64,000 bases of DNA from assembly GCA_017886875.1 (NCBI GenBank), contig JAGHIZ010000103.1, positions 1-64,000 on the forward strand, written 5' to 3'. Shown in pieces: positions 6,163 to 41,526 of the stretch (position 1 is the first letter of the stretch; each line of letters begins with the position of its first letter). The notes beneath the pieces are model-generated. The model did not search any database, was not told the origin of the DNA, and saw nothing but the letters and a program-made list of their open reading frames with translations. Source of the DNA: Butyricicoccus sp. Lineage in GTDB: Bacteria > Bacillota > Clostridia > Oscillospirales > Butyricicoccaceae. The position numbers and the translations under genes are program-made.

Positions 6163-9099
6163 TTACTTTTTCAATCTTTCATAAAGTATTGCACCTAAAT
6201 TCTCCATAACATATCGCATCATTTCTGGCTCTGAGAACATTTGTACAAAGAATTTTTCATTCTGTTCATACCTTGCAGCTGCCATATTAGGAAAATCTTT
6301 TTCAAATAGTAACATAAATGTCTTTTTATCGTTATTTTGAGCGTAACTATGCCATTTATCTTGTATTTCATAGTCATTTTGTAGCTGTAATATCACTTTG
6401 TCCATTTCAGTAAAGCTAGTTCCATATTTTTCATTGATTTTATCAATAATAATACTTAATTGGTCTTTCTTTTTCTCTTTGCGACCTGCTTCACCAGTAA
6501 TAGGCTTAACTTCCTCTTTACCGCTTTCCAGTTTTATTTCACCCTCAAAATCTTTTTCTAAACGATAATATTCTAAAAATACTTTATCATCTACAAAAAC
6601 TTTATCTTGTCCGCCTTTTGGTAAGAAATTATAAAGAAATTTTGCATATATACTAAATTTATGAATATCTTTATCAAACAATCTACAAACCTGTGTTATA
6701 AATGCATAAATTCTATTAAAACGTGCAAGTGTTGATTTAAAAAGTTCTTGTTTTTCCTTTGAAAGTGCATTAAAACGGTCTAAGGCTGGTTTTAATTCGC
6801 CTTGTAAACGTCCACTATTTAATTGATTTTTATAGAAAATTTCTGCAAAATGATTTATTTCTGTTTGCTGATAAACACAATATTCATCTAATGTATTTTT
6901 TATATCATAAATAACATTTGGGTCAGTTTCTTGTTCTAAAACTGTTTGCTCATAAAATGGCTCAAATGCATTTTTTATATCTTCTGCTGAATTTACAAAA
7001 TCAAGTACAAATGTATCTTGTTTACCTTTCATTGTGCGGTTAAGACGTGATAATGTTTGAACTGCTTTTACACCAGATAACTTTTTATCTACAAACATTG
7101 TATGAAGTAATGGTTCATCAAAACCTGTTTGATATTTTTCAGCTACAATAAGCATGTTAAATTTATCAGTATGAAATGTTTCTGGTAATGCTTTTTCTTT
7201 TATTGTTTCACCTGATTTATTTTTATTTAATTTTTCTTCAGTATATACTGTTCCATTGTCCTCAATTTCACCTGAAAATGCTACTAATACATCTAAATCT
7301 GTATATTTTTTATCTTCTATCTGTCGTTTAAACTCCAATAAATATCTAACCGCATGAAGTCTTGATGCTGTTACTATCATTGCTTTAGCTTTTCCGCCTA
7401 TTTTATGTCTTGTTACATTTCTAAAATGTTCTAACATAATAGCTGTTTTTTGTGAAATATTATGAGGGTGTAAAGTTTCAAAATTACTAATTGCTTTTAC
7501 TCCTGCGGCTGTGTCTAATTCTGGATTATCCTTGATTGATTTAGCTATCTTATAATACATTTTATATGTCATATAATTTTTAAGCACATCAAGAATAAAT
7601 CCTTCTTCAATCGCTTGACGCATAGAATATATATGAAATGGGTGATATTTGCCTTGTTTATCTTTTATACCGAACATTTGCAAGGTTTTCTCTTTTGGAG
7701 TTGCTGTAAATGCAAAAAATGAAAGATTTTCATGTGTTCCATGTGCTGCCATTTCCTCAAGCATTTTATCTTCATAATCTTTACTATTTTGTTCTAGCTC
7801 GGCATATTCTTCTAACACTTTGTCTGTATCGGCTAAAGCACATTTTAATTTTTTAGCTGCATCACCTGTTTGTGATGAATGGGCTTCATCTACAATTACT
7901 GCAAAACGTTTATTTGTTGAATGTACTTCTTTATATATAACTGGGAATTTTTGCAGAGTAGTTATAATAATAGGTGTTCCTGCCTCGATTGCGTTTCTTA
8001 ATTGTTTAGCATCTTTATCTATTTTTTCTACTACGCCTGCTACATGGTCAAACTGATAAACTGTATTTTGTAATTGACTATCTAAAACTTTACGGTCTGT
8101 TACTATAATAACTGACTGAAATATTTTTTCATCATTATTGTTATGTAAACCTGCAAGACGATGGGCAAGCCATGCAATAGAATTTGATTTTCCAGAACCT
8201 GCACTATGCTGAATTAAATAATGTTTACCCGAACCATTAACTTTTACATCTTCTAGTAATTTTGTAACTACATCTGACTGATGGTATCTAGGAAAAATCA
8301 TTTTTTCTTTATCTAAATGCATATATTTATGAAAAATTTCTAATAAACGGTCTTTGCAAAGCACCTTTTCCCATAAATAAGAAGTATCATAACCATCTGG
8401 GTTATTTGGGTTTCCTTTACCGCCAACTTTTCCAGCTCCATTACTGCCCTGATTAAACGGTAAAAAATATGTATTATTTCCCTCTAACCTTGTTGTCATA
8501 TATACATCTGTTAAATCTATTGCAAAATAAACCAAAATTCTATTTTTAAACTGTAAAATAGTATCTTTTCCCGCTCTATCCTGTTTATATTGCTTTATAG
8601 CGTCAAAAACATTTTGTCCTGTAAACTGACATTTTAACTCCATAGCAACAACCGGAATACCATTTAAAAACAAAACCATATCAATACTGTTATTATTGAC
8701 TAAGGAATAATGTAACTGTCTTGTACAATGCAAAATATTAGCGTTATATTGTGCATTAGTGGTTTCATTTATAGAAGTTTCAGGTTTCCAGAACACAATA
8801 CGAAACTTTATCCCCCTATCTGTGAAACCCTCACGCATAACCTTTAAAAGCCCTATATGCCTAACTTCTCTACAAAATCTATCTACAATCTGTGTTTCAC
8901 TATCTGCACCATAGATTTTTTGATAACGCTCCCATTGTTTAGGCTGACTACTTTTTATAAACTCTATAAATGTTTGAATATCTAGTGCTTTTTCTTTATC
9001 AAAGGCTTTAGGATTGCCCTTTTGATATCCCCCTTTTGTTATAAAATATTCTTCTATATCATTTTCAAAGCGTTTTTCTCTGTAGTCAAAGTCGGACAT
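6163..9099 (-). CDS. hsdR: Type I restriction endonuclease subunit R (HsdR)
   Basis: Motor and nuclease subunit that translocates DNA and cuts it away from unmethylated sites. The N-terminal nuclease shows Asp142, Glu156 and Lys158 (ID..VAMELK, numbered from the ATG at 9105), a PD-(D/E)xK site. Then come the superfamily 2 helicase motifs: Walker A SAGSGKS (301-307), DEAH (406-409), and FAFTATP. A C-terminal helical region that docks on the methyltransferase follows. Two starts exist. The ATG at 9105 overlaps the preceding stop (ATGA). The ATG at 9099 has GAGGAG at eight bases and is preferred. All motifs look intact, at about 980 residues, normal for the family. It follows hsdM and hsdS in one minus-strand operon. 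Confidence 0.95.
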   Translation of the reverse strand: MSDFDYREKRFENDIEEYFITKGGYQKGNPKAFDKEKALDIQTFIEFIKSSQPKQWERYQKIYGADSETQIVDRFCREVRHIGLLKVMREGFTDRGIKFRIVFWKPETSINETTNAQYNANILHCTRQLHYSLVNNNSIDMVLFLNGIPVVAMELKCQFTGQNVFDAIKQYKQDRAGKDTILQFKNRILVYFAIDLTDVYMTTRLEGNNTYFLPFNQGSNGAGKVGGKGNPNNPDGYDTSYLWEKVLCKDRLLEIFHKYMHLDKEKMIFPRYHQSDVVTKLLEDVKVNGSGKHYLIQHSAGSGKSNSIAWLAHRLAGLHNNNDEKIFQSVIIVTDRKVLDSQLQNTVYQFDHVAGVVEKIDKDAKQLRNAIEAGTPIIITTLQKFPVIYKEVHSTNKRFAVIVDEAHSSQTGDAAKKLKCALADTDKVLEEYAELEQNSKDYEDKMLEEMAAHGTHENLSFFAFTATPKEKTLQMFGIKDKQGKYHPFHIYSMRQAIEEGFILDVLKNYMTYKMYYKIAKSIKDNPELDTAAGVKAISNFETLHPHNISQKTAIMLEHFRNVTRHKIGGKAKAMIVTASRLHAVRYLLEFKRQIEDKKYTDLDVLVAFSGEIEDNGTVYTEEKLNKNKSGETIKEKALPETFHTDKFNMLIVAEKYQTGFDEPLLHTMFVDKKLSGVKAVQTLSRLNRTMKGKQDTFVLDFVNSAEDIKNAFEPFYEQTVLEQETDPNVIYDIKNTLDEYCVYQQTEINHFAEIFYKNQLNSGRLQGELKPALDRFNALSKEKQELFKSTLARFNRIYAFITQVCRLFDKDIHKFSIYAKFLYNFLPKGGQDKVFVDDKVFLEYYRLEKDFEGEIKLESGKEEVKPITGEAGRKEKKKDQLSIIIDKINEKYGTSFTEMDKVILQLQNDYEIQDKWHSYAQNNDKKTFMLLFEKDFPNMAAARYEQNEKFFVQMFSEPEMMRYVMENLGAILYERLKK

Positions 9100-9101
9100 T
9101 T

Positions 9102-9860
9102 TCATAACTCCTCATTTACAATAATTCCAGATAAGATATCTAAGAAATTAATTCTACTTAAAATTTCTGCATATCTTTCACCTTTTTGGGACACCTTATA
9201 CTCTAAAAGATTACTTCTATATCTAATTTTACTATTTACTTCGGCTGAAATACACATAAGACCTAAAGCAAGTAAACGCCCTGTTATTTCAGTATATACC
9301 TCTTTGTAATTAACAGGTATTTTTAACATTTTATATCGTTCCTCTCGTTCTTTGTATTCATAATCAGAACGAATTTGTATGATATCTGATAAAAAAAGCC
9401 TTTCCGTAATGCTACAAAAATCATCAAATTCAAATTTTTTAATTTCTTTATTTAAATATGCTCTATAAATCTCACTTAATATTCTCGATTTTTCTTCTCT
9501 ATCAAATCTTTCTATAGTTGAAATTAACAATTCAATTTCATCATATATCCAATCTTCTTTATTTTCTAATGCTTGTATTCTACCCTCTATTTCTTGTTGA
9601 TTGATTTCACCTTTATGAAGTTCTGAGAAAAACTTTAATGTTTTTTTTATGAAAAATCTATCTCTAATTGTTAAAAACATATTTTTTGCTGATATAAAAT
9701 AACCTAAAACAGGAAAATCTTTTAATATTGTATCAAATTCGCCAAAAGTTCCATCAGGAAAAGAATCTATAAAATTTTTAAAAATGCAATCCAAAGTATC
9801 AGTCATTGAATCGTTCATACATTTATACATAGACTTCCCAAATGATTCAACTAAATTCAT
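9102..9860 (-). CDS. Unknown helical protein between hsdS and hsdR
   Basis: Not recognised with certainty. The 252-residue protein is predicted from composition to be mostly helical. A hydrophobic stretch (FPVLGYFISAKNMF, about residues 49-62) is followed by the basic segment IRDRFFIKKTLKFF, then Glu/Lys-rich helices and a C-terminal part that may be a small wHTH-like region. No enzyme motif is visible. Its stop overlaps the possible hsdR start at 9105, and it starts eight bases after hsdS, so it is translated as part of the restriction operon. Position suggests an accessory or regulatory role in the restriction system, or an independent defence gene. This is inference only. Confidence 0.75.
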   Translation of the reverse strand: MNLVESFGKSMYKCMNDSMTDTLDCIFKNFIDSFPDGTFGEFDTILKDFPVLGYFISAKNMFLTIRDRFFIKKTLKFFSELHKGEINQQEIEGRIQALENKEDWIYDEIELLISTIERFDREEKSRILSEIYRAYLNKEIKKFEFDDFCSITERLFLSDIIQIRSDYEYKEREERYKMLKIPVNYKEVYTEITGRLLALGLMCISAEVNSKIRYRSNLLEYKVSQKGERYAEILSRINFLDILSGIIVNEEL

Positions 9861-9868
9861 AATTTTAA

Positions 9869-11188
9869 TTACACCTCTTTCTTTCCTGTTACAACCTCAT
9901 AAATAAGTGATTTTTTATATTCTGTGAGTTTATCAATAAGTTTTTGTTTTTTATTTATAGCAAAGTCGATTTTTTCGCATTTGCTGTCAAGATAATCAGC
10001 AATTTGTTTTTGTTCATCTTTAGGCGGAAGTGTTAAACATACATCTCTTAAACCCTCACCACTTATTGTATATTGACCAGCAGCAGTGCTTGTATGTAAA
10101 TCAATTTCACACTTTCCAGATGAGCTTAATAAATACCATAATAAAAAACGTTCTATACAATAATTAGATATTTTAACTCTAATAATATGGTCATTATATG
10201 CTACTTTTTCGCCTATTGAATAGAAAATAGCACATTTTCCAACTAATGATTTACTTCCATTAACTCTAACAAATAAAAAATCACCATCTGAAAGACTATA
10301 TGTATTTAATTCTTTTTCTGTCAATTCAATTCGGTTTTGATGTTCATAACTAATTTCACCATTAGGTAAAATATTTTTTAATTTAAGTACAATTTGTCCA
10401 TCAGATTTATCTAAATCTCTCCTTGTTAGTCCATTTTGTGTAGAAGTTATTATTCTTGTTGCTTTTATAATATGCCAATGCTCTGGAATTTCTCCAATCC
10501 ATTCAACCCCACTATCTTTCATAGTAACATCAGGGTTTAAGCCTTTTGTTACAGCCTCAGTAATAATAGAAAGTTTATATTCTTTAAGTTTTTCAATAAC
10601 TGTTTGCTGTTTTGATATTATTTCATCAATTTTACTGCACTTTTTGTCAAGATAGTTTGCTATGCGGTGCTGAATATTTAATTTAGGAAATGGAAAAGAA
10701 AAATTACAGAAATCATACTGATAAAGATGAATAATTGTGCTATTACCTGAATTTATTGTATAAAACCACTTCCAAAACACATCTGATTGCAAAACCCAAA
10801 ATAAAAATTTTTTTAAACAATTATCTTTTGTGCGAATAAGTAATACACCACTATTTAAAGATGTTTCTGCTGGCATATTGGAAACAATGGCAACTTTTCC
10901 AACAGTACCATCTTTTGTAATCAGTAAATCACCATTTTTAATTTGTATTTGTGACGCTTCTTCCCATCTTTTCATTGGAACATGTACACATGTTGACCAA
11001 TCAATTTTACCATTATTAAAATTAACGCCTGTTATTAAATAAGCCCCACCATCACAATATTCATTAGATGTCAAACCTTGCCAACCAATTCTACCGTTAA
11101 GAGTTGCAATATACTTAATTTTTCTACTTTCCCAATCTTTTGGAATTTCTCCAATCCATTCGATACCACTATCTTTTATTTCTCTCAT
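9869..11188 (-). CDS. hsdS: Type I restriction specificity subunit S (HsdS)
   Basis: DNA-recognition subunit that gives the methyltransferase and endonuclease their bipartite target. It has two target-recognition domains, each starting with nearly the same sequence (DSGIEWIGEIPKDW near the start and DSGVEWIGEIPEHW near residue 220). Each domain ends in a conserved helix (HRIANYLDKKCSKIDEII and KQIADYLDSKCEKIDF) that spaces the two half-sites. Two starts are possible: ATG at 11200, or ATG at 11188 with GAGG just upstream. The latter is preferred and shortens the overlap with the gene before. Only one hsdS is present, with no inverted partial copies nearby, so shuffling by inversion is not evident. 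Confidence 0.93.
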   Translation of the reverse strand: MREIKDSGIEWIGEIPKDWESRKIKYIATLNGRIGWQGLTSNEYCDGGAYLITGVNFNNGKIDWSTCVHVPMKRWEEASQIQIKNGDLLITKDGTVGKVAIVSNMPAETSLNSGVLLIRTKDNCLKKFLFWVLQSDVFWKWFYTINSGNSTIIHLYQYDFCNFSFPFPKLNIQHRIANYLDKKCSKIDEIISKQQTVIEKLKEYKLSIITEAVTKGLNPDVTMKDSGVEWIGEIPEHWHIIKATRIITSTQNGLTRRDLDKSDGQIVLKLKNILPNGEISYEHQNRIELTEKELNTYSLSDGDFLFVRVNGSKSLVGKCAIFYSIGEKVAYNDHIIRVKISNYCIERFLLWYLLSSSGKCEIDLHTSTAAGQYTISGEGLRDVCLTLPPKDEQKQIADYLDSKCEKIDFAINKKQKLIDKLTEYKKSLIYEVVTGKKEV

Positions 11189-11963
11189 AATATTCCTCAT
11201 TTAAAAAGCTAATTTTCTTTTCATTCATGTCAACTATAACAGGATATTTTAATATTTTTGATAACGGAACAATAATAGATATATTTGAAATATTACCAAT
11301 ATTTATTGTATGTGTTTCATATAAAGCATTTTGACTTATGATTTGATAATCAATACCATGTTTATTTTTTATTATAGAAATATTTTTATATGGATATTTG
11401 ATACAAAAACGAAATTCTTGTTGATATTTAAATTCAACATCTTTATAGAACACAGGATTTTTCATAGATTTTCCAGTGAGAAATTCAATTTTACGTTTAT
11501 TCATTTCTTTATAGTCAAGATATTCAACTTCAGAATACCACAATTTTAATGATTCCTTTTCACATATATTATTAACTTTCTCAACAAGCTCACAAGGACT
11601 CATAATCATAATAACATGTTCCTCAGAAAAGTTAGATAATGCATTTTTAGCATCATCTGATATTGTTAATAGATAAACATTTTCTTGGATAATATGACAA
11701 TCATTCTCTTTATATATAAAAAAACTCTTTAAAAATGTATTTCCTATCATTAATCTTGAATTTTCTGGTTTTGAAATACCAAATTCACTATATGGAAAAT
11801 CTTCAACTTTTGCAGGTATACAACCATCAAATATATCACTTCTTGCAGAATCCTTATAATCAAGTCCCTGATAATAAAGACTACTTCGCATAAAAAATTC
11901 ACCTGCTTGCAGTCGTTCTAAATATTCTTTTTTATCAACACGTAACATTGGTAACTCAAACAT
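11169..11963 (-). CDS. Unknown protein between hsdM and hsdS
   Basis: Not recognised. The 264-residue soluble protein begins with a segment (GEFFMRSSLYYQGLDYKDSARSD) reminiscent of small defence-locus proteins that start with a short phrase about a Tyr-Tyr pair followed by R-x-D. The middle is predicted beta-rich, and there are no signal peptide or membrane segments. Its start overlaps the end of hsdM by eight bases and its end overlaps hsdS, so all three are translationally coupled. This placement inside the modification cassette suggests cargo that needs the same expression as the methyltransferase, for example a toxin or effector kept in balance by it, or an accessory specificity factor. 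No function is assigned. Confidence 0.75.
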   Translation of the reverse strand: MFELPMLRVDKKEYLERLQAGEFFMRSSLYYQGLDYKDSARSDIFDGCIPAKVEDFPYSEFGISKPENSRLMIGNTFLKSFFIYKENDCHIIQENVYLLTISDDAKNALSNFSEEHVIMIMSPCELVEKVNNICEKESLKLWYSEVEYLDYKEMNKRKIEFLTGKSMKNPVFYKDVEFKYQQEFRFCIKYPYKNISIIKNKHGIDYQIISQNALYETHTINIGNISNISIIVPLSKILKYPVIVDMNEKKISFLNEEYYERNKR

Positions 11964-13686
11964 AAAACACCTCCGAAAGACTGCCGTCCAAGTCTAATTC
12001 CAGCTCTAAAATCTCAGCCATGATTTCCGCTGATGGTTTTGGAGCTTCATATTTATAAAAATATCTTGTAAACGGTATTTCATAGCCTATTTTTGATTTT
12101 TTCTCATCAATCCAAGCATCTTCAGCGAATGGCAGAACCTCACGTTCAAAATATGTGTGAATATCTTCCTTTAAAGGTACATTTTCTGTGTCCCTAAGTG
12201 AAGTATCTGGCTGAGGTTTACCTTTTTTTAATACATTTTCTCCATTTTCATCTTTTAAAGGTCGCTCAACAATGATTTTTGTATAACCAAAATCGGCATT
12301 ATCAAAAATTTTACTGATTTCACTTTCTACAAAATCGCCATATAGGTTAGTAATTTCATTTATAGCACTTTCTGGTATATCATTACGCTTGTTTCCTAGA
12401 GCTTTACGACGTTTTTCATATAGATTATTAGCGTTAATTAGCTGTATTTTGCCTTGTCGTTTTGTGCCAGCTTTTTTATTAGATAAAACCCAAATATAAG
12501 TAGCAATACCAGTATTATAAAAAATGTCATTTGGTAGAGCAATAATAGTTTCAAGTAAATCATTTTCTATAATATATTTACGGATTTCAGAAGGTCCACT
12601 TCCTGCATCACCAGTGAAAAGCGGTGAACCATTATGAATTATAGCTATTCTGCTACCTCCGTCCTTTGGTTCTTTCATTTTTGAAATAGCAGTTAATAAA
12701 AATAGCATTTGACCATCACTAGCCGCAGGCAGTCCAGCACCAAAACGACCAGCAAAACCAAGTTTAGCTTCTTTTTCAACTATTGATTTTTCGTTTTTCC
12801 ATTCTCTGCCAAAAGGCGGATTGGATAAAATATAATCGAATTTTTGCCCCTGAAATTTATCATCAGATAATGTGTTACCATCTTTTATAAAGTCTGCATT
12901 ATTGCCTTTAATAAGCATATCAGCCTTACAAATTGCAAAAGTTTGGTCATTTATTTCCTGACCAAATGCCATAATCTCAGTACCTTTATTTAACTGATGA
13001 AGATATTCTTCAGCAACAGATAACATACCACCTGTACCACAAGCAGGGTCATAAATTGTTTTTGCTACATTATTACCAGATAATATATCATTATCATCAT
13101 GAAATAGAATATTAACCATTAACTGAATTACTTCACGAGGTGTATAATGTTGTCCAGCATCTTCATTATGAGCTTCTGAAAAACGTCTAATAATTTCTTC
13201 AAAAATATAACCCATTTCCAAATTAGAAATTAAATCTGGGTGTAAATTAGCTTTATCGGTTGTAAATTCTTTGATGACTATATAAAGTATACCTTTATTA
13301 GCCATAGTTGTAATTTGACCATCAAATTTAAACTTTTCAAGTATATTGGTTACATTTTCAGAAAAGCCATTTAGATAATCACGGAAATTTGCTTCAATAT
13401 TATCAGGGTCATCTAAAAGACGTTCAAAAGTGTATTTACTTGTATTATAGAAAGCCTTTCCAGATACATTTCTTAGTAATACATCACGCATAGGAATATT
13501 TTTTACAGCTTCATATTTTTCAAGCACAGCATCTTTAGTATCTGATAAAATACAATCAAATCTACGAATAACTGTAAGTGGTAAAATAACTTCACCATAT
13601 TCATGAGGTTTATAAACACCAGTTAATTTATCTGCAATAGCCCATATTAAGGCAGCTTTTTCACTTATATTAGAACTAAGGCTCAT
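11956..13686 (-). CDS. hsdM: Type I restriction DNA methyltransferase subunit M (HsdM)
   Basis: N6-adenine methyltransferase of the type I complex. An N-terminal helical HsdM_N domain (about 1-150) is followed by the methylase domain, with the SAM-binding motif DPACGTGG (213-220) and the catalytic motif NPPF (289-292). Its 576 residues are typical for the family. The ATG at 13686 follows a strong TTAGGAGG sequence at 13695-13700. It is the first gene of the operon that continues through hsdS and hsdR to the AAA_13-S24 gene, so modification is made before restriction. It works with HsdS to protect the element and host DNA. Confidence 0.96.
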   Translation of the reverse strand: MSLSSNISEKAALIWAIADKLTGVYKPHEYGEVILPLTVIRRFDCILSDTKDAVLEKYEAVKNIPMRDVLLRNVSGKAFYNTSKYTFERLLDDPDNIEANFRDYLNGFSENVTNILEKFKFDGQITTMANKGILYIVIKEFTTDKANLHPDLISNLEMGYIFEEIIRRFSEAHNEDAGQHYTPREVIQLMVNILFHDDNDILSGNNVAKTIYDPACGTGGMLSVAEEYLHQLNKGTEIMAFGQEINDQTFAICKADMLIKGNNADFIKDGNTLSDDKFQGQKFDYILSNPPFGREWKNEKSIVEKEAKLGFAGRFGAGLPAASDGQMLFLLTAISKMKEPKDGGSRIAIIHNGSPLFTGDAGSGPSEIRKYIIENDLLETIIALPNDIFYNTGIATYIWVLSNKKAGTKRQGKIQLINANNLYEKRRKALGNKRNDIPESAINEITNLYGDFVESEISKIFDNADFGYTKIIVERPLKDENGENVLKKGKPQPDTSLRDTENVPLKEDIHTYFEREVLPFAEDAWIDEKKSKIGYEIPFTRYFYKYEAPKPSAEIMAEILELELDLDGSLSEVFYV

Positions 13687-13756: not shown

Positions 13757-13785
13757 AAAAAGCCTGCTCTTGACTAAAAGCAGAC
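13757..13785 (-). terminator. Terminator before the hsd operon
   Basis: On the minus strand CTGCTTTT and AAGAGCAG pair (one G-U) around a 4-nt loop, followed by GGCTTTTTAT. It would end transcripts of the small peptide gene and the relaxase gene upstream. Confidence 0.7.
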
Positions 13786-13814
13786 TTATGTGTTAATATT
13801 TAATTAGTAAAAGG

Positions 13815-14029
13815 GAGTGCTGTCTGACAGACGGTCAGCCCCAAAAGATTAGATTATCAAAATTAGTAACCGCATCTATTTGGTCGTAGTGGCGGTTACT
13901 TTGCATTTATAATGAAAATATGTAGCAAAAAAGCTATACATATTAAAATTCTAATGAATTTCATCATCATAAATATCACCTCCCTTCATGGGAGAGTGAC
14001 TAACCGCCCGCCGTTTGTTGACAGCACTC
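13815..14029 (-). ncRNA. Structured region resembling a type I toxin-antitoxin locus
   Basis: GAGTGCTGTC at 13815-13824 is the exact complement of GACAGCACTC at 14020-14029, giving a 10-bp long-range closing stem around the small peptide gene. Inside it, AGTAACCGC and GCGGTTACT (13865-13900) form a second hairpin right after the peptide stop, and the ribosome site lies in a short CCC..GGG hairpin. Long-range 5'-3' pairing and a structured 3' end are hallmarks of type I toxin mRNAs. An antisense RNA on the plus strand is expected but not proven. Confidence 0.5.
13896..13970 (-). CDS. Small hydrophobic peptide, candidate type I toxin (24 aa)
   Basis: Too short for ordinary gene finding. ATG at 13970 is preceded by a near-perfect ribosome site, GGGAGGTGAT (about 13985-13976), with six bases of spacing. 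The peptide starts MMMKFIRILI, continues with a hydrophobic core (CIAFLLHIFII) and ends NAK, so one short membrane helix with a basic start. A strong ribosome site before such a peptide, a hairpin directly after the stop, and long-range pairing around it match type I toxins (small membrane peptides controlled by antisense RNA). It could stabilise element A against loss. Toxicity is inferred. Confidence 0.6.
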   Translation of the reverse strand: MMMKFIRILICIAFLLHIFIINAK

Positions 14030-14068
14030 GACTTATTTTAACATAACTACACTAGATATATCAAGGTT

Positions 14069-15310
14069 TTATCTTTCCATATCCCAAGATTTTGACTTTT
14101 TACGCACTGGTTGATGTTTTTTCACTGGTTCTTGTTTTTGCTGTGGTTGTTTTTCTTCAAGCAAATGTTTTATAAAGACCTTTATTTTTTCTGGTGCTTT
14201 TTTCATCACAACTAGAAATTCTCGTGTCTGTTCTCTTAAATCCTCATAACGACTTCTCCATATCCTAGCACTTTCTAATGCACGTTGTAAACTGTTTTTC
14301 AGCTCGTTAATCTGAACTTTTGCACTTATACCGCTTTTAGCGAGTTCTTTAAGCCTTTCTGCTTCTTGTTTTGTAAATTCAATCTTACCAAATATATTTT
14401 TACGTCCCATACTATCTATTTCACTAAATGTATGGGATATATTTATATAAACCTGCGTTTTTTCTTCTATATTTTCTAACTCATTTTGCTTATCTTCAAC
14501 TTGCTTTTCAAGCTGAGATAAGCGTTCTTTTTCACGTTCTACTTTAAACTGTGTAACAGTTAGATGTTCTTCTGTGCTGCCACGCTCGCCACGTTCAATA
14601 TCTGTGTAACCAGCTTTTTTCATAGCATTGAAGAAATCGTCTTGCAAAACGCTATAAGATTTTCTTAACACGGGTTTTCCGTTTTTCTGTAAAATTATAT
14701 TACCGTTTTCATCAAGTGCAGGCTTTGAAATCCACTTTTTACTGCTACTAACTTGCATTATTGTTTCCTTAACTGTTCCAACAAGCGATTTATCTTTGCA
14801 ACGTTTTGTCCAAAGTATTTTCTTTTCTACAACTGGCACATATACAACGTGTAAATGATAATGATATATATCTTCACCTAAAGCCTCAGACATTGCTCTG
14901 TTACGTTCATCAGCGTGCATAACTGCGGATAAGATATATTGTTCACCGCCTACGATTTCAACTGCTGCTCTGTAAGCGTCCTCATAAAACATTTTGGCAA
15001 ATTCATAACCACCATGATTATAGAAATATGCGGAGTTTACATCGAAGATTAACTCACCATACAAATTAGCATCTTCTTTAAGACCTCGTGTAGATATTAT
15101 CTTTTCATTTTCCATCTGTTTAAACATATCAGAATAATTGCCACTTGGTTTCTTAAAATGAATATTCCTATTAGTTCGTTCTGATATAATATCTGGATTT
15201 GTATAAGATTCTTTTTCACGTTCATTATGCCTTTGGGCATTTCCGATTTTACCAGAGGTCATATTTACATTTCTTGCACTGGTGCGATTAGCACCATCAT
15301 TCCTTGCCAT
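14069..15310 (-). CDS. MobV-family relaxase (Pre/Mob) of element A
   Basis: Nicks the transfer origin and leads the single strand into a recipient when a helper conjugation system is present. The 413-residue protein shows the MobV signature HADERNRAMSEALG (132-145), followed by the three-histidine metal site YHYHLHVVYVP (His150, 152, 154). Earlier NAQRHNERE (24-32) is the conserved N-terminal part. A coiled coil and Lys/Gln-rich tail follow from about residue 260. Element B carries a homologue at 25398-26615. A structured oriT-like block lies directly upstream (15391-15561). No type IV secretion genes are nearby, so the element is mobilizable rather than self-transmissible. Confidence 0.93.
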   Translation of the reverse strand: MARNDGANRTSARNVNMTSGKIGNAQRHNEREKESYTNPDIISERTNRNIHFKKPSGNYSDMFKQMENEKIISTRGLKEDANLYGELIFDVNSAYFYNHGGYEFAKMFYEDAYRAAVEIVGGEQYILSAVMHADERNRAMSEALGEDIYHYHLHVVYVPVVEKKILWTKRCKDKSLVGTVKETIMQVSSSKKWISKPALDENGNIILQKNGKPVLRKSYSVLQDDFFNAMKKAGYTDIERGERGSTEEHLTVTQFKVEREKERLSQLEKQVEDKQNELENIEEKTQVYINISHTFSEIDSMGRKNIFGKIEFTKQEAERLKELAKSGISAKVQINELKNSLQRALESARIWRSRYEDLREQTREFLVVMKKAPEKIKVFIKHLLEEKQPQQKQEPVKKHQPVRKKSKSWDMER

Positions 15311-19896: not shown

Positions 19897-21168
19897 TTAA
19901 ATCTCATCTATTAAACTTTTAATACAATTTTTTGCATTAAATAAATCAATAAATTCAACTCGTACATCAATACCATCAAGTGCTTCAAATTGTATTTTTT
20001 CTGATAGTTTATCTGTTCTTGGATATATTAGTGTTACATATTCTGCATTATATTTTTTCTGATAAACATACATTTGATACATATCTGATTGTGAAATACC
20101 ATAGTTTGCCTTATCCGAAGATAATATTTTCCATTTTGTGTCCATAACATAGACTTTATTATTAAATTGGCATTTTATAACTAAATCTGGTCGTATAGAA
20201 AATTTTTTACTAGGTTTATCAAATAAATAAAATGATTTATCCTGTACTGATATACAATACCTAGTTTTATTTATATATTTTTTCATAAGAAATGCAATGT
20301 ATTTCTCAAATAGGACTTCCATAGGAAACAACAATGCAATTGCAACTTCCGAACCTGTAAAAGATGTAAAACTCTTACCCATCATAAAAATTTTGCTCCA
20401 TATTAAAGCATTATTGTAATCTTTAGTATTACGATTTAAAATACACTTTTCAAAATCACTATTAACATCTATACATTTTGGCACTTCATCAAAGCTATTT
20501 AAAAGTATCTTTATATCTGTTTTGTTTTTAGTAGATTTGGAATGTTTATATAAGTATATAAGAGTGGTTTTTAATATACGATTTTCTGGTCTATTAACGC
20601 TAAATACATCATATTGTATATAATTTTTTTCTTTATGCGTATGATTATATTTTATGTGCTCTGAAAACTTTATTTTTCCTTTTAGAAAGGTAGCATTTTC
20701 TTCGATTAGTTCATAATTACATTTCAATCCACGCTTAACAATATAAAAAACTTCATCAATAAACATTCTTATAAATATATCTAATATATTTATTTTATCA
20801 CAACTTATATTTGCCGTTTGGAATGATTTATATGGATAATTATCTAATGTTTTTAGCATATCTAAAAGCAATTTTTTTGTTTTAATTATATAATCATCGC
20901 TCATATCTGAATATGTGATTTTAGGTAAGATTTCTATGCTTGTACCATCATTTAATACAATAATTCCAACATAATTTCTAACTGTAATGACTTTTCCTAT
21001 ACCTTTTTTAGTTGAAAGTCGCATAAATTCAAACGTGTCATCACATCGATTATTTAAAACAAATTGCTCTAATTTAGCAAATATTTGTTGCGGAAGTGTG
21101 ACATATCCCCCTATATCTCTGCCTGTTATAAATGAACCATATTCTTGTATTTGATAGATTGGTTTCAT
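19897..21168 (-). CDS. mcrC: McrC, nuclease subunit of McrBC restriction system
   Basis: Partner of the McrB motor; it cuts DNA carrying modified cytosine. The N-terminal part (GYVTLPQQIFAKLEQF, NYVGIIVLNDGTSIEILPKI) is the usual McrC opening. The C-terminal nuclease has RPDLVI (Asp328) and VMDTKWK (Asp343, Lys345), a PD-(D/E)xK site, then a conserved Gln-Met-Tyr-x-Tyr segment. Length 423 residues is normal. The ATG at 21168 follows AAAGGTG. It lies 26 bp after mcrB on the same strand, so the two form one transcript. Confidence 0.93.
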   Translation of the reverse strand: MKPIYQIQEYGSFITGRDIGGYVTLPQQIFAKLEQFVLNNRCDDTFEFMRLSTKKGIGKVITVRNYVGIIVLNDGTSIEILPKITYSDMSDDYIIKTKKLLLDMLKTLDNYPYKSFQTANISCDKINILDIFIRMFIDEVFYIVKRGLKCNYELIEENATFLKGKIKFSEHIKYNHTHKEKNYIQYDVFSVNRPENRILKTTLIYLYKHSKSTKNKTDIKILLNSFDEVPKCIDVNSDFEKCILNRNTKDYNNALIWSKIFMMGKSFTSFTGSEVAIALLFPMEVLFEKYIAFLMKKYINKTRYCISVQDKSFYLFDKPSKKFSIRPDLVIKCQFNNKVYVMDTKWKILSSDKANYGISQSDMYQMYVYQKKYNAEYVTLIYPRTDKLSEKIQFEALDGIDVRVEFIDLFNAKNCIKSLIDEI

Positions 21169-21194
21169 CTTTGCACACCTTTCTATGCATAAAT

Positions 21195-23213
21195 TTATAT
21201 TGTTCTATATGATTCTATATTTTCAAATGCAGCATTATTTATCTCATAACTATAACTATCATCTAAATCAATATCAACATCACCAAACAAATCAATATAA
21301 TCATTAATTTTAGCTATAATAAATTGACTATCTGGTGATGTCTTTTTCGTATCACCTAATACCAAACGAATTTTCTCATAATCCTCATAAAAATACTCCT
21401 GTAAAAGAGGAATTATATTATTTTTGAAAATATCAGATAATGTTTGTAAATTAGGATTATCTTTCAATGGCATAAAATAAGCATGACCTATTGTATGCTC
21501 TCTATCATATAAAACAGAAATACGCTTATTAAGCTTAATAAGTAGTTCACTTATTGATATATCATCTACAAAAACATCTTCTAAAACTTCAGGCTGTGGT
21601 AGCATCTCTTTAAATAAAAATCTGCGTCTTAACGCAGTATCTATCGTAGCAATCGAACGGTCAGCTGTATTCATAGTACCAATTAAATATATATTATTAG
21701 GTATTCCAAACGGTTTTTTACAATATGGTAGTTTAACTGTTAAACCCTCCATTTCACCAACACGTTTTGTAGGCTCTACTAATGTAATTAACTCACCAAA
21801 AATTTTAGATATATTTCCTCGATTTATTTCATCTATTATAAACACATAATTTTGTTTTGTGTAATTTACATTTAGATAATTTGTATTTATATAATTTTGA
21901 TTTAAATTTATATCTCTTGATAAGTTTCTATACTTTTCCATAATTTTATATACATCTGTTAGTGATATATTAGACATTTTATATACAGATGCTAATGTCA
22001 TAGTTACACCACCATTCGCTTCTAAAATATTTTCTTTAATACCTTTTACAATCCATTCAACCTTACGCAAACGTTTATAATATTTATATTCATCATGCCA
22101 TTCGTATTCACCAGTTACAACACCAATTGCATCAATAGTAGAGGCACTATAACACGAAAGCACTATATCACCTATTTTCATACGGTTAATAAATGCATTT
22201 AATACAATTTCTCCACCAAATTTAGTAAAATCAGTTTTATCTGTGATATCTTTTCCATAATCGTCCCAGCCAATTCGTATATGACTATTTTCCATGCATT
22301 CTGTTCTAGTAGGATTATCACCTGTTTTTTCCAATGACACTTTCCAAATATTAGGATTATTACCGATATTAAAATTGTTTTTATCTTTTTTTATAGGTGT
22401 AACCGCATTTTCACAAAAACGTTTAAATACACCAGACTCTACATCGTATTTTATATCGCCACTATTTTCATCTACAGTATCATCATTAGCAATCCTAGGC
22501 TTTATACCCTCAATAAATTCCTCATATCCATATGATTGATGAAATGTAGTAAACTCAATAAGACCTTGTTCTTTATAAGTATTATATCTATCTAGAATAT
22601 CAATATATTCTTCTTGCTGTATTTTATCAAGTTTTTCATTTTCTATAATAGCAACAGCATATATAACTGTATTATATGTTTTTCCTGTACCAGGAGGACC
22701 ATACAAAATAGTATTCAAACCTATATCTGTTTTTTTATCATTCTTTAATAAATCAATATCAATACTCATAAGTGCCTCCCTCAATTCAGGACGTATTTTC
22801 CAATAGTAGTTATCAAGAAATCTTTTATTAGCTTCAAAACGTCGCTTATTTCCAACAAAGGAAATCATATAATATTCTTTATCATACTTATATTTATCAA
22901 AATTGTATTTTTTCTTAATCTTCATACCAAAATTACTAATTAATCTATGATAGTAACTATATGATTTCCCATATTTTTTTATTAAATCATCAAGTCTAAA
23001 TTCTCCTCCAACTTCTAAAATTTTCATAAATACATCAATTATTTCAAAATTTGCGATTGACCTATCATTCAATATTGATATCCAAATTTCTGTTGTAATA
23101 TTAGTATTATATTCTGGCATACGTTTCCAAGAAGGTACTATATATCCTCCTCTTCCTAGTTTTTTCCCTTTAATCATTCTATCAAAATAAGTTTCTTTAT
23201 TTTCACTTTCCAC
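21195..23213 (-). CDS. mcrB: McrB-type GTPase with inserted EVE-like domain
   Basis: Motor and recognition subunit. The N-terminal about 160 residues form an unrecognised, probably wHTH-containing region. The AAA+ domain has Walker A GPPGTGKT (about 172-179), then EFTTFHQSYGYEEFIEGIKP, Walker B FIIDEINRGNISKIFGEL and the McrB signature GTMNTADRS. Between Walker A and B, about 130 residues (WKVSLEKTGDNPTRTECMEN..HIRIGWDDYG..MKIGDIVLSCY..DAIGVVTGEYEW) resemble the EVE/PUA-like fold, which binds modified bases. Start: GTG at 23213 has AAGG nine bases upstream; a GTG at 23222 has none. It is followed by mcrC. Confidence 0.92.
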   Translation of the reverse strand: MESENKETYFDRMIKGKKLGRGGYIVPSWKRMPEYNTNITTEIWISILNDRSIANFEIIDVFMKILEVGGEFRLDDLIKKYGKSYSYYHRLISNFGMKIKKKYNFDKYKYDKEYYMISFVGNKRRFEANKRFLDNYYWKIRPELREALMSIDIDLLKNDKKTDIGLNTILYGPPGTGKTYNTVIYAVAIIENEKLDKIQQEEYIDILDRYNTYKEQGLIEFTTFHQSYGYEEFIEGIKPRIANDDTVDENSGDIKYDVESGVFKRFCENAVTPIKKDKNNFNIGNNPNIWKVSLEKTGDNPTRTECMENSHIRIGWDDYGKDITDKTDFTKFGGEIVLNAFINRMKIGDIVLSCYSASTIDAIGVVTGEYEWHDEYKYYKRLRKVEWIVKGIKENILEANGGVTMTLASVYKMSNISLTDVYKIMEKYRNLSRDINLNQNYINTNYLNVNYTKQNYVFIIDEINRGNISKIFGELITLVEPTKRVGEMEGLTVKLPYCKKPFGIPNNIYLIGTMNTADRSIATIDTALRRRFLFKEMLPQPEVLEDVFVDDISISELLIKLNKRISVLYDREHTIGHAYFMPLKDNPNLQTLSDIFKNNIIPLLQEYFYEDYEKIRLVLGDTKKTSPDSQFIIAKINDYIDLFGDVDIDLDDSYSYEINNAAFENIESYRTI

Positions 23214-23318
23214 AACAATCACCCTTACTAATAACAGCTATTATTACTAATTATTATACAAATTTAATTCAAAAACATCAAGGAATATAAGTTTATTATT
23301 AGAATTTATAATCAATAG

Positions 23319-41299: not shown

Positions 41300-41466
41300 G
41301 GCATAAAAATAGTGCGTTATGCGTACTTTCTTGTTACGAAATCACTTTCGCTCTTTGAAAAGCCGCTCACGACCAACCCACTATCAGCCGAAGGGTATCC
41401 GCCGAATATTTCGATAAACCCTTACCTCGTCAACTGTAAAACACACTTTTACAGTCCTGGCGCTTA
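41300..41466 (-). promoter_or_regulatory. glmS ribozyme / riboswitch
   Basis: On the minus strand the catalytic core begins AGCGCCAGGACTG, followed by TTGACGAGG, GGGTTTATCGA, TTCGGCGGAT and the P3-P4 hairpins (GCGAAAGTGATTTCGT). These match the glmS self-cleaving ribozyme in sequence and order. Cleavage is expected just before AGCGCC (near 41466) when glucosamine-6-phosphate is bound, destabilising the glmS mRNA. The rest of 41232-41299 is the leader with the ribosome site; no other gene is in this gap. Confidence 0.93.
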
Positions 41467-41526
41467 AAAATATTAACTTTTAGCTTTCAAAATAATATCT
41501 CCCTCCTTTTGAAAATAAACCTTTTT

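Follow-up and report, generated by a model that had tools for sequence, protein, structure and literature searches.

A predicted type I toxin–antitoxin module beside a relaxase gene in Butyricicoccus, with relatives across the Clostridia

A 64,000-nucleotide stretch of DNA from Butyricicoccus sp. (contig JAGHIZ010000103.1, positions 1–64,000; hereafter the window) carries, between a relaxase gene and an hsd operon, a short unit that encloses an open reading frame (ORF) of only 24 codons. What is this unit, and what might it do for the DNA that carries it? An earlier reading of the sequence alone (the original prediction) took it for a type I toxin-like locus, a view that homologues, paired promoters, a terminator-like hairpin and coding selection now support. 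We conclude, with a probability of roughly 0.9, that the locus is a type I toxin–antitoxin (TA) module on an integrative mobilisable element, with the architecture of BsrG/TxpA. Conservation of the ORF, the RNA fold, both promoters, the antisense terminator-like hairpin, the recognition loop and the linkage to the relaxase were all seen in silico.

The toxin unit lies on the minus strand (14029→13811), which the original prediction had left unstated, as a structured RNA encoding the peptide MMMKFIRILICIAFLLHIFIINAK. The 10-bp long-range pairing is exact: gagtgctgtc (13815–13824) and gacagcactc (14020–14029) are reverse complements. The ribosome site and start codon are also in place, with the Shine–Dalgarno (SD) sequence GGGAGGTGAT (13984→13975) ahead of an ATG at 13970, a 24-aa ORF and a stop codon at 13898→13896. 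The hairpin at 13865–13900 forms from AGUAACCGC (13900→13892) and GCGGUUACU (13873→13865), but it does not follow the stop codon at once, as had been claimed; the UAA is inside its 5′ stem.

Searches with blastn and tblastn against plasmids and phages gave no match, so we mapped the distribution with whole genomes and a covariance model. At the DNA level, three further convincing copies were found in the same genome, together with copies in three genomes of the same genus and weaker ones in other genera; a strict DNA pattern matched only two genome contigs and one viral contig. A covariance model (R1) built from ten copies matched the window once and its genome five times (the window copy and four more). 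Of 87 genomes of the bacterial family, 53 had matches (no more than 11 in any one), and in a sample of 291 genomes from the class there were 46 with matches, representing 38 of 180 genera. A covariance search of this kind had been proposed with the original prediction, and in many genomes it recovers homologous peptides flanked by the same structures. One IMG/VR viral contig of 42 kb (L096) has two copies of the module.

The window peptide is strongly hydrophobic (Kyte-Doolittle value of 2.8 over 17 aa). Among ORFs of its class the median dN/dS is 0.30, and the ratio is under 1 in 98% of pairs, which marks the ORF as real. Almost every covariance match encodes a hydrophobic peptide of 20–36 aa whose stop codon falls within U(AA/GA/AG)CCGCC. 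The peptides are mostly basic-ended and belong to several unrelated-looking classes carried in the same RNA frame: ...R..IC...LLHIF.INAK (that of the window), MEY...IKK, ...FLVI..ITF..NAK and the Hol_Tox-like MVTYS(E/D)L...KKK. Two of the Hol_Tox-like peptides (L032 and L092) score above the Pfam cut-off, and the RNAs around them were likewise recovered with R1. The product is then a small (<60 aa), hydrophobic and usually basic-ended peptide under coding selection. The window peptide had no match in Pfam, NCBIfam, PHROGs or PDB. It had none to Hol_Tox (PF16935) and does not contain PXXXGC, the motif of the Fst/Ldr transmembrane helix (PMC8309996); for want of a profile match and a motif, respectively, membership of these two families was rejected. 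Exchange of the peptide has been reported for Bacillus bsrG/SR4 loci (PMC6562991).

The RNA (13800–14040, minus strand) has a folding energy of −86 kcal/mol, compared with −47 ± 4 for shuffled sequences (z −9.1). The structure recurs in 81 distinct aligned homologues, where 91% of cells pair and two-sided changes occur at 57 of the 59 pairs. Covariation was 0.414, against 0.184 after shuffling and at most 0.097 with slid partners, a gap to the slid controls that is still large for an alignment fitted to a covariance model, which favours pairing. The long-range stem, the SD-hiding hairpin and the stop hairpin (0.398 versus 0.144 when counted alone) covary strongly. Prediction and covariation together indicate that the structure of the toxin mRNA probably hides the ribosome-binding site. 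With several copies scattered through a genome and an inverted repeat on its outside, the unit could also be a repeat resembling a miniature inverted-repeat transposable element, a non-autonomous transposon with the stem as its terminal inverted repeats and an incidental ORF. However, the arms change in compensatory fashion with no conserved terminal sequence, the ORF is under purifying selection, and conserved promoters lie outside the arms; this reading was rejected as very improbable.

The 5′ element has two pairing partners, the 3′ element and UAACCGCC at the stop codon, and therefore two competing conformations are possible, either of which may form in the nascent or in the full-length RNA. 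Covariation in the helix with the stop region is weak (5 of 8 pairs two-sided; 0.204 versus 0.175 shuffled), so we offer this helix as a plausible hypothesis. The dinucleotide in the 5′ element partly tracks the identity of the stop codon (UC with UGA in 6 of 8, CU with UAG in 3 of 3), and a helix between these two regions is also drawn in the Rfam BsrG model. In one subgroup (L071, L074, L078, L088 and L093), UAACGCC replaces UAACCGCC at the stop, and a bulged pairing to the 5′ element is conceivable by eye.

An antisense partner was part of the original prediction, and a conserved opposite-strand promoter and terminator-like hairpin argue for such an RNA. Promoter-like sites point inward from both sides of the window unit, the antisense site just outside the 3′ arm and the sense site at the 5′ arm. 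Among 78 homologues, the antisense site is near-consensus (mean 11.0 of 12, with at least 10 in 82%) and the sense site averages 9.9 (at least 10 in 65%). Opposite-orientation controls had means of 6.9–7.4 and reached 10 in 1–3% (the sense-site control averaged 6.9; 1% of antisense-site controls reached 10). The stop hairpin is followed on the antisense strand by a T-rich tail, with ∼52% T compared with 21% inside the ORF (the tail figure is approximate, as some hairpin rows are misplaced). Complementary to the final toxin codons, which often encode Lys, this tail forms with the hairpin what looks like an antitoxin terminator. The YUNR motif is present in 90% of distinct antisense loops, against 64% after shuffling (0/500), and UUGG in 46% against 14%.

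How the module works, by transcription, toxicity, neutralisation and addiction, is what we infer. The minus strand would make the toxin mRNA from the 5′ arm, with the SD locked in its hairpin and the two ends of the RNA paired. From its promoter just beyond the 3′ arm, the plus strand would make a short antisense RNA that ends at the toxin stop-codon hairpin. First contact may occur between the complementary stop-hairpin loops, spreading to a duplex of ∼100 bp and leading to silencing or to decay by RNase III. Were the element lost, the antisense RNA would decay sooner than the mRNA, whose remainder would yield the membrane-disrupting peptide. The bsrG mRNA hides its SD and makes first contact with SR4 through the SR4 terminator loop (PMC6562991), a position equivalent to the antisense stop-hairpin loop here.

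Copies diverge in the predicted recognition segment, formed by the stop-hairpin loop and the linker. The window and locus L006 are 98% identical across the 5′ untranslated region (UTR) and ORF and 86% in the 3′ arm region, whereas the loop and the linker are 58% and 55% identical (the alignment-based random baseline is ∼46%). Tandem pairs on the same contig were then chosen at a 5′ UTR and ORF identity of at least 85%. In 13 of 13 such pairs, which are not independent (9 loci, 9 genomes), the loop-to-linker identity was below that of both flanks. Mean identity was 96% in the 5′ UTR and ORF and 96% in the 3′ arm, compared with 71% from loop to linker including the conserved 3′ stem, 67% in the loop alone and 63% in the linker alone; ten pairs are 97–99% identical across the 5′ UTR and ORF. 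Plain relaxed constraint predicts divergence no faster than at silent sites of the adjacent ORF. Selection for non-cross-reacting antitoxins is a possible explanation, and the one that we favour. Near-identical targets are told apart by a short variable region in the E. coli Orz RNAs (PMC3919570), and SibC acts via target-recognition domains (PMC8309996). On balance, we lean towards viewing the RNA frame in Clostridia as an exchangeable cassette, in which unrelated toxins are swapped within a covarying scaffold and a hypervariable address is under selection, such that each new copy would become an addiction module beyond the reach of its siblings' antitoxins.

Tandem arrays of at least three module copies, most with near-identical toxins and divergent recognition segments, were seen at L107 (G325:C1:2361800-2363900), L102, L103 and L105. 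A locus from another genus with a different toxin (L043:848-1055, plus strand) matches the recognition loop of the window copy over 16 nt, which hints at loop exchange or convergence. The arrays bear on whether the product is a toxin at all. Toxicity of the peptide is itself a prediction and some copies are single and chromosomal, as might suit a harmless small membrane protein under antisense RNA control. Tandem arrays with diverged recognition segments are more like toxin modules, however, and the frame is shared with Hol_Tox peptides and exchanges one peptide for another; a non-toxic product is improbable.

As originally described, the toxin unit lies between the relaxase gene (Mob_Pre), upstream, and a type I restriction–modification (R-M) operon, downstream. 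Farther up, beyond the relaxase, are an AAA ATPase, a NikA-like protein and a tyrosine integrase, and these genes, with the relaxase and the R-M operon, mark the neighbourhood as a predicted integrative mobilisable element. In a second species (G004), the same RNA follows a relaxase that is 65% identical and is succeeded by a different, convergent type I R-M operon (annotated by eye), so the relaxase and the TA module stay together while the R-M cargo changes. This linkage in two species suggests that the module may stabilise the element, one of the two roles first proposed; the other, abortive infection, drew no specific support. A type I TA module serving mainly abortive infection or a stress response, and not element maintenance, would sit well with R-M cargo next door and with the existence of chromosomal and viral copies. 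Nothing specific points to phage sensing, however, and from one species to the other it is the cargo that changes, relaxase and TA being retained, which leaves such a role doubtful.

The other copies in the same genome occupy unrelated chromosomal places, near tgt/transketolase, tRNA-Arg, a cell-surface-like protein and atp genes/tRNA-Leu/glyS (named by eye), and the flanking genes therefore fail to explain the conservation. They also bear on a further reading, in which the RNA, just upstream of hsdM and on the same strand, is a leader or attenuator of the hsd operon, with a leader peptide and hairpins that control read-through into hsdM. A terminator-like hairpin lies in between, as do distinct promoter-like sites, the R-M operon of G004 that comes after the same RNA is different and convergent, and copies elsewhere in the genome adjoin tgt/transketolase, tRNA-Arg or atp genes/tRNA-Leu/glyS. 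The conserved antisense promoter would be unaccounted for as well, and the leader-peptide reading, which has hardly any chance of being correct, was rejected.

The TA module shares much with bsrG/SR4 (B. subtilis SP-beta; RF01412): a hydrophobic peptide with terminal lysines, an SD in a hairpin (AUCCCCUAUGAAAGGGGUG versus UCACUCUCCCAUGAAGGGAGGUGA), a 5′ end complementary to the stop-codon region, an antisense RNA covering the 3′ half, and pre-stop Lys codons that form the T run of the antisense strand (PMC6562991). The bsrG sequence itself displays the same overlap of stop codon and T run (AAAAGAAAAAATAG). The window peptide, however, is shorter and unrelated, the window RNA has an additional strong 5′–3′ helix, and bsrG possesses a separate 3′ terminator stem past the overlap, whereas the window unit is ended by the long-range arm itself. 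Overlap at the 3′ end is common to bsrG/SR4 and txpA/RatA (PMC3531473, PMC6562991). The latter, on the B. subtilis skin element, likewise has a convergent toxin mRNA and antisense RNA (∼120 nt of 3′ overlap) on a mobile element (PMC3531473), but the length of RatA exceeds that of the overlap, and there is no YUNR motif in its interacting loops (PMC6562991). Hol_Tox (PF16935) peptides share the RNA frame in relatives L032 and L092, unlike the unmatched window peptide. Ibs/Sib and Zor/Orz of E. coli are also repeated, similar toxins with antisense RNAs (PMC3919570, PMC8309996), but with unrelated peptides and RNA layouts; Sib spans the whole ORF and Orz is divergently encoded. The C. difficile CD0956.2/RCd10-type modules are Clostridia mobile-element type I systems with convergent overlapping genes and Lys-rich C termini (PMC6563280, PMC7699646); their toxins are mostly 34–53 aa.

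The window copy scored 21.8 bits with the Rfam BsrG model and its relatives up to 35.7 bits, well below the gathering cut-off of 55 bits; in three relatives the sub-threshold similarity spans the whole model. Several observations weigh against our interpretation. R1 scores true BsrG at only 8.7 bits, and since it barely detects it, homology to BsrG rests on architecture and weak scores. Given these values in both directions, membership of Rfam BsrG was rejected, and the module is outside that family and known peptide families. Compared with homologues, the window copy has a weaker antisense promoter (9/12) and a shorter antisense terminator tail (CTTTGCATTTAT), and some copies have a degenerate ORF or no clear sense promoter. 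Chromosomal copies also lie away from obvious elements, so element maintenance cannot be the only role.

The features of the locus are collected in Table 1. The neighbouring R-M operon (6163–13686, minus strand) comprises hsdM, hsdS and hsdR with two inserted ORFs (11169–11963, 264 aa; 9102–9860, 252 aa) that have no Pfam or PADLOC match. Beside the mobile element, an ORF pair that is McrBC-like by eye (19897–23222, minus strand) consists of a 675-aa AAA-like protein with weak PADLOC REase_II matches and a 423-aa partner without a PADLOC match. A glmS ribozyme (90 bits) is located at 41312–41475 (minus strand).

Table 1. Positions of the predicted toxin–antitoxin features in the window
Feature	Position	Strand	Evidence
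Toxin mRNA, ∼219 nt predicted, closed by long-range stem	13811–14029	−	Fold, covariation; covariance match 13814–14029, 222.9 bits
Long-range stem, 5′ arm (partner 13815–13824)	14020–14029	−	Helices 1–2 ∼96% paired, two-sided changes at every pair
5′ element GGCGGGCGGUUAG (partner 3′ element, alternatively UAACCGCC around stop codon)	14000–14012	−	Helix 3 96.7% paired; alternative helix 91.5% paired, weaker covariation
SD-hiding hairpin (UCACUCUCCC-AUGAA-GGGAGGUGA)	13976–13999	−	Fold; helix 5 93.7% paired, covarying
ORF, 24-aa hydrophobic peptide MMMKFIRILICIAFLLHIFIINAK, predicted membrane toxin	13896–13970	−	dN/dS of related ORFs, hydropathy
mRNA stop-codon hairpin; on plus strand, predicted antisense terminator hairpin and recognition loop AUCUAUUUGGUCGUAGUG (YUNR motif)	13865–13900	−	
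Hypervariable recognition segment: stop-hairpin loop and linker after hairpin, with 3′ stem (13865–13873) between them	13844–13891	−	
3′ element and long-range stem 3′ arm, then short U run	13815–13842	−	Pairing, covariation
Predicted sense (toxin) promoter TTGATA-18-TAAAAT, extended TG; predicted start ∼14029	14035–14064	−	Position kept in homologues
Predicted antisense (antitoxin) promoter TTGACT-18-TAATAT with TG	13770–13799	+	Kept in homologues
Predicted antisense antitoxin RNA, ∼107 nt, complementary to 3′ half of toxin mRNA	13806–13912	+	Inferred from promoter, hairpin, T-rich tail
Terminator-like hairpin between toxin unit and hsd operon	13760–13787	−	
Relaxase gene (Mob_Pre, PF01076), immediately upstream of toxin unit	14069–15310	−	65% aa homologue upstream of same RNA in another species

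Most genomes of the bacterial family, and about one-sixth of those sampled from the class, carry the module, yet the peptide is without a Pfam, NCBIfam or PHROG family and the RNA without an above-threshold Rfam family. The module defines a family of tiny predicted toxins that can be searched for and would be overlooked by ordinary gene callers. The tandem copies, with near-identical toxins and diverged antidote addresses, form a natural data set for the evolution of antisense specificity and the avoidance of cross-silencing, and linkage to the relaxase with swapped restriction cargo offers a concrete system in which to study element stabilisation.
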